In this document: one piece after another, positions 14,273-18,062 of the stretch
How positions within the stretch are numbered: the stretch's first letter is position 1
Layout: every line of letters starts with the position of its first letter
NCBI GenBank assembly: GCA_003249095.1
Contig: QBMS01000026.1
Coordinates: forward strand, 1 to 38,368
DNA from: Snowella sp.
Lineage (GTDB): Bacteria; Cyanobacteriota; Cyanobacteriia; Cyanobacteriales; Microcystaceae
DNA length: 38,368 nt
Direction of reading: 5' to 3'
Translations under genes and position numbers: made by a program
The notes under the pieces: model-generated
The model's database searches: none
Told to the model about the DNA's origin: nothing
What the model saw: the letters and a program-made list of their open reading frames with translations, nothing else

Positions 14273-14317
14273 AAATCGTTAGACCTACATCGTCAGGGAA
14301 ATTTGGATGTAAAAGTT

Positions 14318-16015
14318 ATGAAAATCAAAGATCAAGATTCAATAAGAGAAATAATAGATCGTTGTAAAGCGACTCCAAGTGAACATATTGAGAGCGAAGA
14401 AGTTGAATTTAAAGAGTATAGAGACATTCAATCCCTGCATAATGCTAAAGATTTAGCTGAGGAAATTTCAGCATTAGCTAATTTACGTGGTGGAATCATC
14501 ATTATTGGAATTAAAGATAGTTCTAATGTTGTTCATGAAAACTGGCTCAGCCAACTTGTTGGCTTTGACAAAGGAGATCTCATTGAAATTGAACAACGTC
14601 TGAAAGGTAAACTCAAACCATCTCTGGAGATTTGTGCTGAGTATTTTGATTTTGAAGATAAATCTTATCTGATCATTCATGTTCCACATCGACGAGATTC
14701 TTTGATAGCTACTTCAAGTGGCAAATTTTGTATTAGGGACGGCAGATCAAGTCGTCCTATGCAGCCTGATGAACTTAGACAAGCAGTAAACAACTTACAA
14801 AATTATGATTGGAGCGCAGATTTATTAGAGTTAAGCGCAATCGATAGTCTAGACCCAATTGCATTAGATCAGGCTTACGCCGATTATTGTAGTAGAAAAC
14901 AGTATTCTGTAGAATCTCAGCCCGATAAATCTGCTTTTCTAGAAGCAATTGGAGCTACAAATAACGGATTTCTTGCAAAAGCTGGTTTATTGTTTTTAGG
15001 TAAATCAAATCTTATTAGACAATGGCTAGCCGCTTACGAGTATAGATTTAGTTGTAAAACCCGATCAGGAAAACTTCTTCTAAATGAGGTATGGGAGGAA
15101 TGTATTTGGACATCCATCAAACTTGCAAAGCACCATTTTACTACCTGCAATCCAACGCAAGAAATACACTTTCAAGGGAAAATCTACAATGTACCAATTC
15201 TTGATGATCTCGCATTCCATGAGGCTTTTATCAATTCTATTGTTCATAGGGATTATTCTATAGATGGAATGATCTCTGTTGATTTTGATTTAACAAAAAT
15301 GACTATTACTAATCCAGGTGGCTTCTATGGAGGAGTTACGTCAGAAAATATTGTGCTACATCAACCGAGACACAGAAATAAAGCCTTAGCTAAGCTTATG
15401 ATGCAGTTTCAGCTTGTTGATAGAGCTGGAATGGGTGTTAAGAGAATGGGTTTAGGTTCTTTAATTTATGGAAGAGAATTTCCAAAATTTGGAGAATCTT
15501 TTAATTGTGTAGAGGTTTCTATGCAAGCTGAATCTGTTCTGCCAGGAATATTTGTGTTGGTACAAGGTAATCCTGACAACTATGATTTAATCGATTTAAT
15601 TTTAATTAATAGCCTGTATCGAAAAGGCGTAATTTCTGTTGGCGAGGGGCAAAAAAGAATTCGTCATCTTTCAACAAATCCTTGGCTTTCTTTAAAAGAC
15701 TCAGTTAGGAGAATAGAACAAATTGAGTTTTGCGGAAGAAACGATGGAGTTTATATAAAAGTAAATTCTCAATGGAATAAGTTTTTTGATATAAAAAAGA
15801 CTTTTCCTGTGACAGCAACTTCAATAAAGCACGTCAAATTATATGACTATCTAATGGAATTTGGAGAAGCATCCAACGACGAAATAACAACCCTTTTGGA
15901 ACACAAAACCAGTAATCATACAAGTAAGTTCCTAAGAGATGCACAGTATGTTTACCGTGTTGGGAGTTCTAGAAGCTCACGTTGGTTAATCAAAAAAGAT
16001 GGAATCGAAAAATAA
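14318..16015 (+). CDS. AlbA_2/Schlafen-like domain putative ATP-binding regulator
   Basis: This protein of about 565 residues has an N-terminal AlbA_2 (Schlafen-type, formerly AAA_4) domain: 'EEVEFKEYRD', then 'EEISALANLRGGIIIIGI' and 'YLIIHVPHRRDS'. The central part carries the GHKL-like ATP-binding segment typical of these proteins: 'FHEAFINSIVHRDYS', 'MTITNPGGFYGG', 'RHRNKALAKLM' and 'DRAGMGVKRM'. The C-terminal 200 residues may hold a winged-helix part. The family is annotated as putative transcriptional regulators or helicases, and related Schlafen-like proteins occur in defence systems. ATG at 14318 is preferred; a TTG at 14303 with GGGA just upstream is an alternative. The gene is AT-rich and has no HIP1 octamer, unlike its flanks, suggesting acquisition. 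Confidence 0.78.
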   Translation: MKIKDQDSIREIIDRCKATPSEHIESEEVEFKEYRDIQSLHNAKDLAEEISALANLRGGIIIIGIKDSSNVVHENWLSQLVGFDKGDLIEIEQRLKGKLKPSLEICAEYFDFEDKSYLIIHVPHRRDSLIATSSGKFCIRDGRSSRPMQPDELRQAVNNLQNYDWSADLLELSAIDSLDPIALDQAYADYCSRKQYSVESQPDKSAFLEAIGATNNGFLAKAGLLFLGKSNLIRQWLAAYEYRFSCKTRSGKLLLNEVWEECIWTSIKLAKHHFTTCNPTQEIHFQGKIYNVPILDDLAFHEAFINSIVHRDYSIDGMISVDFDLTKMTITNPGGFYGGVTSENIVLHQPRHRNKALAKLMMQFQLVDRAGMGVKRMGLGSLIYGREFPKFGESFNCVEVSMQAESVLPGIFVLVQGNPDNYDLIDLILINSLYRKGVISVGEGQKRIRHLSTNPWLSLKDSVRRIEQIEFCGRNDGVYIKVNSQWNKFFDIKKTFPVTATSIKHVKLYDYLMEFGEASNDEITTLLEHKTSNHTSKFLRDAQYVYRVGSSRSSRWLIKKDGIEK

Positions 16016-16062: not shown

Positions 16063-16142
16063 TGCGATCGCCGATCTGTAGTCTGAATTGACAATAGTAA
16101 ACCTAACATCTCACACACAATCAAGTTTATTAAAGCGATCGC
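16063..16142 (+). repeat. Direct repeat flanking HPr gene, upstream copy
   Basis: It shares three blocks in order with 16618-16700: TGCGATCGCCGATCT (16063-16077), TTGACAAT (16088-16095) and AATCAAGTTTATTAAAG (16119-16135, one mismatch), ending with a HIP1 octamer. The first two blocks are exactly 555 bp from their partners. Confidence 0.65.
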
Positions 16143-16255: not shown

Positions 16256-16359
16256 GCTCGTCAATAATATGAGTTAACAAGCTCCTCACTGCGTTAGACA
16301 TAAGACAGAGTATCATTATTTTATATTCACTTACTTTTATTTGATTTAGAGGAAAAACT

Positions 16360-16617
16360 ATGTACCAAAAAGATGCTATTATCACCGCTCCCAATGGTTT
16401 GGATACTCGTCCAGTTGCACAATTTGTAAAAGAAGCAAAGAATTTTGTTTCTGATATTACTGTAACCACTAACGGCAAGAGTGTTAGTGCGAAAAGTCTT
16501 TTCAAACTACAGACACTGGGTCTAACTCATGGTACACAGGTAACTATCGCGGCTGAAGGCGAGGATGAACATCAAGCTGTTGAACAACTGGTAGCCTTGC
16601 TAAACGAGTTGGAGTAA
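16360..16617 (+). CDS. ptsH: Gammaproteobacterial-type HPr with His15 replaced by Asp
   Basis: This is an 85-residue HPr, normally the phosphocarrier between enzyme I and the sugar-specific EIIs of the PTS. Length and sequence follow the enteric/Vibrio HPr closely: 'ITAPNGL', 'QFVKEAK', '[17 protein letters not shown]', 'EGEDE' and 'NELE' at the end. From memory of E. coli HPr, about three quarters of residues agree, so the gene is probably transferred from a gammaproteobacterium. The active-site loop reads 'NGLDTRPVA': His15 is Asp (codon GAT), while Arg17 and Ser46 are kept. Cyanobacteria usually lack a PTS, and no enzyme I or EII is in the window. The ATG has AGAGG nine bases upstream. The stop codon abuts the downstream direct repeat. 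The reading frame is intact, so the protein is likely made, but its role must differ from ordinary phosphotransfer. Confidence 0.88.
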
Positions 16618-16700
16618 TGCGATCGCCGATCTTTAGGTTATGTTGACAATCATACAAAATCAAGTTGATTAAAGAAAATATAGAGAAAAAAAGCGATCGC
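16618..16700 (+). repeat. Direct repeat flanking HPr gene, downstream copy
   Basis: It begins with the base right after the HPr stop codon. It repeats TGCGATCGCCGATCT (16618-16632), TTGACAAT (16643-16650) and AATCAAGTTGATTAAAG (16658-16674) from the upstream copy, with a 16-base internal shortening, and ends at a HIP1 octamer (16693-16700). Confidence 0.65.
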
Positions 16701-16886: not shown

Positions 16887-18062
16887 TTAACCCACAGCAG
16901 TTAAACGAAAAGCCGCACCTAAACCTGCCGACATTTCAGCAACCGTAATTTTGCCATCGTGATCGCTGTCCAAAGCATCAAAAACTGCATCCATTCCAGC
17001 CCACTCCTCGCGGGTAATAAAACCATCTCCATCTAAATCGTAGGCATGGAAAATATCCTCGGCGGCATGACTGACAATTTCCGCACCTTCGAGGCGAGTT
17101 AACCGTTCTTGGAGGAGATGTTCTAATGCTTCCAAGGCTTTCGTGAAACCTGCAATACCTTCGGCCAATTTCTCGTTTGCCATTGCATTTTCAGCGTGCA
17201 TTTTTTCAAAGGTTGCTTGATCCATGTCGATTTTCGTAATACTTTGATCAACCTTTGCTGGATCTAGCTTACGGACAAGGGTTTCCTCTGTCGATCGCAA
17301 TTGATCCAATAATTTAGGCGAAATCGTTAAAAGGTCACAACCCGCTAATTCAATAATTTCGCCAATATTACGGAAGCTCGCCCCCATTACCTCGGTTTTG
17401 TAGCCAAATTTTTTGTAATAGTTGTAAATCGTCGTAACAGATTGCACGCCAGGATCTTCTGTTGCTGAATAATCTTTGCCTGTTTCCTTGACGTACCAAT
17501 CTAAAATACGCCCCACAAAAGGAGAAATCAGAGTAACACCCGCCTCAGCACAGGCGATCGCTTGGTGAAGTCCGAATAAGAGAGTGAGATTACAATGAAT
17601 ACCTTCTTTTTCCAAAGATTCTGCCGCCTTGATGCCTTCCCAGGTTGAAGCAATTTTAATCAAAATGCGATCGCGAGAAATGCCTGCCGCTTCGTATTGA
17701 CCAATTAAATAATGGGCTTTTTCAATCGTGGCTTGGGTATCATAGGACAATCTCGCGTCAACTTCCGTTGAAACTCGTCCTGGAATAATTTCTAGAATTT
17801 TAAGACCAAAAGAAACTGCCAAACGGTCAAAGGCAAGGGTCACAACATCGGATAGTGAGGCACTGCTTCCTAATTCTTTTCGCGCTTTTTTGAGGGTATC
17901 ATCAACAATTTCCTGATATTGGGGCATTTGAGCCGCCGCCGTGATCAAAGAAGGATTGGTTGTAGCATCACGGGGCGTAAAAGTTTCGATCGCCTGAATA
18001 TCGCCTGTATCTGCGACAACGACCGTCATCGTCTTGAGTTGATCGAGTAAGTTTTGAGTCAT
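16887..18062 (-). CDS. tal: Transaldolase with C-terminal EF-hand pair
   Basis: Transaldolase moves a dihydroxyacetone unit between sugar phosphates in the non-oxidative pentose phosphate pathway. Residues 1-320 match TalB-type enzymes: '[20 protein letters not shown]', 'DATTNPSLI', the Schiff-base Lys in '[13 protein letters not shown]', and '[19 protein letters not shown]'. Residues about 335-391 add two canonical EF-hands: '[12 protein letters not shown]' and '[12 protein letters not shown]', each with Asp at positions 1, 3 and 5 and Glu at 12. The 391-residue fusion is known in other cyanobacteria and suggests calcium-dependent control or binding. The gene is alone, transcribed away from the NIL-ferredoxin across a 220-bp AT-rich gap. 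Confidence 0.96.

Follow-up and report, generated by a model that had tools for sequence, protein, structure and literature searches.

The stretch of DNA analysed here, below called the window (38,368 nucleotides of a Snowella sp. contig), carries an intact gene for a stand-alone HPr of the enteric type in which the phosphoaccepting His15 is replaced by Asp. We propose that this HPr was acquired horizontally and has been retained to bind, without any need for phosphorylation, an enzyme of the host central carbon metabolism, a reading that we place somewhat short of an even bet (probability of about 0.47). A ptsH of the gammaproteobacterial type would have entered a cyanobacterium with no detected PTS partner and would have been retained. 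Its phosphate-carrying His would have been lost and the face formed by helix 1 and helix 2, used for docking on other proteins, would have been kept, so that the protein would bind such an enzyme of the host independently of phosphorylation. The loss of His15 would either remove a useless active-site residue or lock the protein in one binding state. The production of the window HPr, its binding and the identity of its partner are inferred here.

An enteric-type HPr gene with Asp15

The open reading frame spans positions 16360-16617 on the forward strand, from an ATG start to a TAA stop, and its 85 codons form an intact frame. A likely ribosome-binding site, AGAGGA, was recognised by eye at 16348-16353 on the same strand. 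Codon 15 (16402-16404, forward strand) is GAT, which places Asp at the phosphoaccepting position, and Thr16, Arg17 and Ser46 are retained. The protein matches the Pfam PTS-HPr profile over its whole length with 90 bits (cut-off 23, E 1e-25) and the general HPr family model of NCBIfam with 89.1 bits (cut-off 47.9). With the NCBIfam model NF008104, 'phosphocarrier protein Hpr', it reached 146.7 bits, slightly below the equivalog cut-off of 153. The docking residues typical of such ptsH products (R17, K27, S46, L47 and F48) are all present, and the phosphoaccepting His15 is missing. The best identity to ptsH products is 79 % over 85 residues, and judging from the sequence this likeness is far beyond chance. 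These results bear out the sequence-only reading of the window, which had described an intact 85-residue HPr of the enteric type with Ser46 and Arg17 kept and His15 changed to Asp.

A scan with one genome per species recovered at least 466 relatives of the window HPr, and the best 80 of these, all gammaproteobacterial, were kept. They share 74-79 % protein identity with the window HPr and all 80 have His15. At the DNA level, the identity of the window gene to any of the 80 ptsH genes is at most 73.3 %, and its third codon positions are 48.8 % identical to those of the best of them, i.e. near saturation. This rules out a laboratory contaminant as well as a very recent copy of one of the sampled ptsH genes, and the same two figures make it very remote that we deal with an assembly chimera or contamination. 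Moreover, the GC content of the gene (0.415) matches that of the whole window (0.4155) and the gene sits well inside a contig of 39,215 bases. A sequencing error at codon 15 is just as remote, since copies with Glu15 and Tyr15 occur in two other assemblies (see below) and support the loss of His15 independently.

The gene is best read as a ptsH of the gammaproteobacterial type that was probably acquired by horizontal transfer. Its codon fit to the other genes of the window is 0.631, the lowest of the 22 genes tabulated; the fit of enteric ptsH genes to the window genes has a mean of 0.601 and a maximum of 0.695. DNA similarity to ptsH starts at position 16351, 9 nt before the ATG, for five of the seven enteric loci compared, and 3 nt and 40 nt before the ATG for the remaining two. 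Apart from the gene and a stretch of no more than 40 nt before it, these seven loci gave no match to the window in their flanks. The window also contains HIP1-type GCGATCGC sites, which we take to be a cyanobacterial hallmark. Phage and plasmid origins were considered and dropped: two viral contig scans returned no relative, phage records gave 11 matches, all below 60 % identity, and no cyanobacterial plasmid was among the protein matches listed (30 of 84 records and 60 of 96). At the DNA level, the window HPr segment hits 13 plasmid records; all of them are enteric, and the match is confined to ptsH and a few bases ahead of it.

Orphan PTS carriers in cyanobacteria

Profile searches of the window's genome returned one PTS-HPr match only. 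No Enzyme I N-domain (PF05524) was found there over the cut-off (best E 0.24), the single match to the PEP-utilizer C domain (PF02896) is PEP synthase, and no IIA-Glc exceeded the cut-off. In comparison with the enteric ptsH product, the window protein shares its length, fold, docking face and Ser46, but differs by Asp in place of His15 and by the host genome, in which the expected Enzyme I partner and IIA-Glc were not detected over the cut-off. The earlier remark that cyanobacteria generally have no PTS thus agrees with the searches of this genome. Without Enzyme I, an ordinary phosphorelay would not be possible for the window HPr, and we judged as supported the claim that a kept frame with a changed active site points to a use other than phosphotransfer.

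We looked for HPr in draws of genomes from the phylum, family, order and class, which overlap and for which the queries and thresholds differed among searches. In the phylum draw (386 genomes), PTS-HPr was present in 31 genomes with 32 matches in total. Thirty of these lie in frames of 820-875 aa and the other two in short frames of 90 and 110 aa, which belong to the window's genome (G000) and to G205, a genome of the same order. G205 encodes a stand-alone enteric-type HPr of 83 aa that has Glu15 and a gap of two residues. A third stand-alone enteric-type copy, 85 aa long and with Tyr15, was recovered from G630 of the same order in an order draw of 388 genomes. The Tyr15 copy scores 174.3 bits with NF008104 and passes its cut-off, and the Glu15 copy fails with 114.2 bits.

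No close cyanobacterial orthologue of the window HPr was found in the family (50 genomes), order or class draws. The family, including the window's own genome, gave nine matches, of which the other eight are only 38-43 % identical and lie in frames of 464-867 aa. This sample thus contained no close His15-bearing homologue accompanied by a full PTS in a sister cyanobacterium, the finding that had been named beforehand as evidence against the sequence-only reading. Similarly, the HPr copy of G205 was missing from six other genomes of its genus, and no further stand-alone enteric-type HPr was present in 14 genomes of G205's family, in 217 of G630's or in the class draw of 387 genomes, whose two weak matches (41 %) lie in frames 821 and 263 aa long.

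The long-frame cyanobacterial proteins (mostly 820-875 aa) likewise contain HPr domains, but they are fusions of PTS domains, and some of the frames also hold an IIA-Glc-like domain, whereas the window HPr stands alone. Identity to their HPr domains is about 34-43 %. As a control we read the active site of 38 such domains from the phylum, family and class draws, and all 38 keep the His, with a GLHxRP-like motif in 37 and GLHARL in the last one (L028). The long-frame proteins are not the source of the window gene. Each of the three stand-alone copies is closer to enterics than to the other two. A tree calculated with 24 of the 80 enteric loci placed them in three separate, weakly supported positions inside the gammaproteobacterial set. 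We considered a single origin of the three but did not adopt it; the tree separates them without strong support, yet their single clade was not rejected (AU p 0.152).

Orphan copies are not limited to HPr. In an order draw of 387 genomes, 17 had an IIA-Glc match, and stand-alone enteric-type copies were present in five of them (G630, G374, G155, G501 and G477; loci L144-L148). G374, G155 and G501 have His at both phospho-site positions, G630 has His75 and Tyr90, and G477 has Glu75 and Gln90; we take His90 by E. coli numbering to be the phospho-His. As three of the five keep both His, the loss of the phospho-His is not universal in orphan IIA-Glc. The control set, i.e. the 84 IIA-Glc matches of loci L001-L111, has both His without exception; it draws on each of the 80 gammaproteobacterial loci and on four long-frame loci of cyanobacteria. 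In G630, the enteric-type IIA-Glc with Tyr at the phospho-His adjoins the HPr gene on the same strand, and the DNA of this locus matches 15 Nostoc plasmids in the flanks only and not over HPr-crr. These flank matches in a genome of the same order, besides the HIP1-type sites of the window, are evidence that the window's host is a cyanobacterium. The IIA-Glc genes of G630 and G374 differ with dN of 0.091 and dS of 0.159, and the resulting dN/dS of about 0.57 is a sign of weak constraint in this sister case. A tree with 22 of the 80 enteric loci paired G501 with G477 (89/86). A single origin of all five was also considered without being adopted, and one clade was not rejected (AU p 0.209).

The eight orphan genes (HPr and IIA-Glc) have 36.5-41.5 % GC, even where the host locus has 47-53 % (G205, G477 and G501). 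The low GC of these last three (36-40 %; L121 8054-8305, L147 1489-1998 and L148 1450-1959) is hinting at a common AT-rich route. We also noticed a tandem 30-nt duplication, 93 % alike, within the IIA-Glc gene of G630 (L128 8864-8923).

The pattern is larger than first noted, as a residue other than His15 recurs in the form of Glu15 and Tyr15 and as the phospho-His is lost in part of the orphan IIA-Glc. This variety bears on the first of three uses that had been suggested for the altered protein from its sequence, namely a constitutively phospho-like regulator, an acyl-phosphate carrier or a protein-binding module. A constitutive phospho-mimic would have Asp15 imitate phospho-His15 and hold its target permanently on or off. 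The Asp of the window copy and the Glu of G205 are both acidic, and mimicry is possible for these two, but Tyr15 in the HPr of G630 and the Tyr and Gln of two orphan IIA-Glc are not acidic, and the whole set is left unexplained. All that Asp, Glu and Tyr have in common is that they are not His, so phospho-mimicry does not unite the three. In addition, MtlR and Rsd bind unphosphorylated HPr, according to excerpts of PMC5320558. We regard the mimic as improbable.

Constraint, structure and possible partners

We scored changes against the 57 positions that are invariant among the 80 enteric HPr. With gaps counted, the window copy has 6 changes, G630 has 3 and G205 has 17. Position 15 is the only one of the 57 altered in all three, and if changes were random, the chance of a triple change at a named position would be about 0.0017. 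The docking face is conserved across the three copies. In the window, its helix-1 part (residues 16-27; 16405-16440, forward strand) agrees with the enteric consensus at 11 of 12 residues and its helix-2 part (residues 44-51, AKSLFKLQ; 16489-16512, forward strand) at 8 of 8, with Ser46 kept. According to passages of PMC6763467 and PMC5320558, HPr meets MtlR and Rsd with a patch made of R17, K27, S46, L47 and F48, and residues T16 and A20 also contact MtlR. These seven residues are kept in all three copies (21/21 cells, compared with 171/231 elsewhere; Fisher p 0.005). For the segments 16-27 and 44-51, which were picked post hoc with the alignment already seen, 1 of 60 cells at enteric-invariant positions is changed in the pooled copies versus 22 of 108 (p 0.0003). 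Most of the pooled signal is contributed by the Glu15 copy of G205 (p 0.0002), in which two residues beside the active site are lost and Gly13 is changed. Taken singly, the window (1/20 vs 4/36, p 0.64) and G630 (p 0.53) are not significant.

The main rival to a binding role is that the gene is a relic of transfer, functionless and decaying slowly, and that His15 was lost first since it was unused. The other 49 genomes drawn from the family yielded no enteric-type copy and the distribution is rare and scattered, related hosts have IIA-Glc with and without His, one IIA-Glc pair shows the high dN/dS given above, and the repeats flanking the gene (see below) may mark an insertion. Against a relic, the frames are intact in all three HPr copies, all 21 cells of the patch are conserved whereas none of the copies has His15, and third codon positions are near saturation against the nearest ptsH. 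Furthermore, novel amino acids are far fewer than in a neutral simulation with matched numbers of novel synonymous codons, which gave a median of 77 compared with 10 in the window gene; runs as low as observed were 0 of 300 for the Asp copy, 0 of 300 for the Tyr copy and 2 of 300 for the Glu copy. Between the window HPr and six enteric genes, dN is 0.15-0.18 and dS is 1.8-3.0 or saturated. Both dS and the simulation presuppose that the donor resembled the 80 enterics sampled, but it may belong to an unsampled lineage, and synonymous sites saturate. We consider the relic unlikely.

The AlphaFold model of the window HPr, based on an alignment of 15 sequences, has a mean pLDDT of 89.2 and adopts the HPr fold (TM 0.98 to 1poh). 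By fold, it lies closest to E. coli HPr and the H15D mutants (1cm2, 1cm3 and 3ccd; TM 0.97-0.98). HPr taken from complexes with GlgP (9s8b and 9s8k, E. coli structures released in April 2026) and with Rsd (4xwj) fits the model with TM of 0.92-0.95. The engineered E. coli H15D protein carries the same substitution, and its solved structures are among the top matches by sequence and fold. It is, however, a laboratory mutant from a species with a full PTS, whereas the window copy is natural and its host has no detected PTS. E. coli HPr H15D, by Napper, Delbaere and Waygood in 1999, is reportedly an engineered precedent for the second suggested use, an acyl-phosphate carrier in which Asp15 would take up and hand on phosphate. 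This precedent and the H15D structures among the best matches speak for such a carrier, but neither an Enzyme I N-domain nor an IIA-Glc acceptor was found in the genome over the cut-off, and Tyr15 of the relative in G630 is unable to carry an acyl phosphate. We leave the carrier a slim chance.

A natural HPr homologue without the catalytic His15 is Crh, with Gln in P. thermoglucosidasius, which works via binding and acts through Ser46-P, made by HPr kinase, together with CcpA (as described in part of PMC9631020). The window HPr likewise combines the lack of His15 with a kept Ser46. Crh is nevertheless a Firmicute family (Bacillus relatives), is 43 % identical to the window protein (1zvv) and is not its nearest relative by sequence, as Crh chains score at most 66.3 bits compared with 124-127 bits for E. 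coli HPr and H15D.

Among the three suggested uses, the protein-binding module fits best, with the docking residues kept throughout while His15 is lost from every copy. We favour a phosphate-free binding module because the surface used for regulatory binding in E. coli HPr is kept and because HPr is reported to bind carbon enzymes. It binds and regulates glycogen phosphorylase in E. coli (PMC6763467 and PMC11046441) and is described as a partner of PykF, PfkB, NagB and Adk (Rodionova et al. 2017, via a passage of PMC8167557). By analogy, the likeliest single partner of the window HPr would be glycogen phosphorylase (GlgP), with perhaps one chance in four. The similar altered copies with an intact docking face in two other cyanobacteria also suggest that HPr may be a phosphate-free binding protein. 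Points against a binding module are the patchy distribution, the non-significant bias of the face in the window and G630 copies taken singly, the changes near the active site of the Glu15 copy, the three of five orphan IIA-Glc that keep both His and the dN/dS of the IIA-Glc pair of G630 and G374.

With three HPr copies and two of the five IIA-Glc affected, a pattern seems likelier than a single odd gene. We tentatively put forward a broader idea, which is somewhat unlikely as a whole, that cyanobacteria lacking a functional enteric PTS have time and again taken up individual enteric PTS carriers (HPr, IIA-Glc) and turned them into phosphate-free allosteric regulators of carbon metabolism, with the loss of the phospho-His favoured each time in HPr. 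If true, the loss in HPr would prevent the protein from being driven by stray phosphorylation or would hold it in one binding state. In any case, the HPr copies are natural counterparts of the H15 mutants made in the laboratory and persist where there is no enteric PTS. They separate the binding roles of HPr from phosphotransfer; the question becomes which host protein binds phosphate-free HPr. We found no title on orphan or His-lacking HPr in cyanobacteria among the open-access titles listed.

Neighbourhood of the HPr genes

A repeat search showed that the window HPr lies between members of an imperfect direct repeat on the forward strand, the upstream one at 16063-16135 (blocks 16063-16095 and 16111-16135) and the downstream one at 16618-16674 (16618-16650 at 82 % and 16650-16674 at 88 %). 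The HPr of G205 is also placed between imperfect direct repeats (L121 7854-7910 and 8329-8386). The downstream copy begins 0 nt after the HPr stop codon in the window and 23 nt after it in G205. The repeats of the window and G205 have no significant similarity to each other, and no convincing attC-type core of an integron-like cassette was seen by eye. A gene of the aldehyde dehydrogenase family, presumably proA, follows HPr at a distance of 5.2 kb in the window and precedes it by 3.2 kb in G205. We considered a shared neighbourhood, but as the gene lies on opposite sides, this was treated as a coincidence.

The neighbourhood also bears on the possibility that the protein is a decoy, i.e. a dominant-negative protein directed against the PTS of gammaproteobacteria living nearby. 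The enteric-type docking surface is kept in hosts without a PTS, and orphan IIA-Glc was captured too, in G630 beside HPr. On the other hand, the 19 neighbouring frames contain no toxin or delivery family (Pfam), a stoichiometric inhibitor would require heavy delivery, and PADLOC gave no match for the HPr of the window or G205. We find a decoy hardly probable. A defence system was dropped as well, the IIA-Glc of G630 also being without a PADLOC match.

Several other genes near the HPr copies are worth mentioning. Upstream of the window HPr, 14303-16015 encodes a 570-aa protein with Schlafen AlbA_2 and HATPase_c_4 domains and weak PADLOC matches to the pAgo and Aga models; its GC3 of 0.24 is the lowest of the 22 window genes tabulated. 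A transaldolase-family protein with C-terminal EF-hand matches is encoded at 16887-18062, and a 225-aa frame at 23534-24211 matches transposases of the IS116/IS110/IS902 family. Just upstream of the G205 HPr, the short frame L121 7427-7732 resembles by eye an N-terminal remnant of a tyrosine recombinase.
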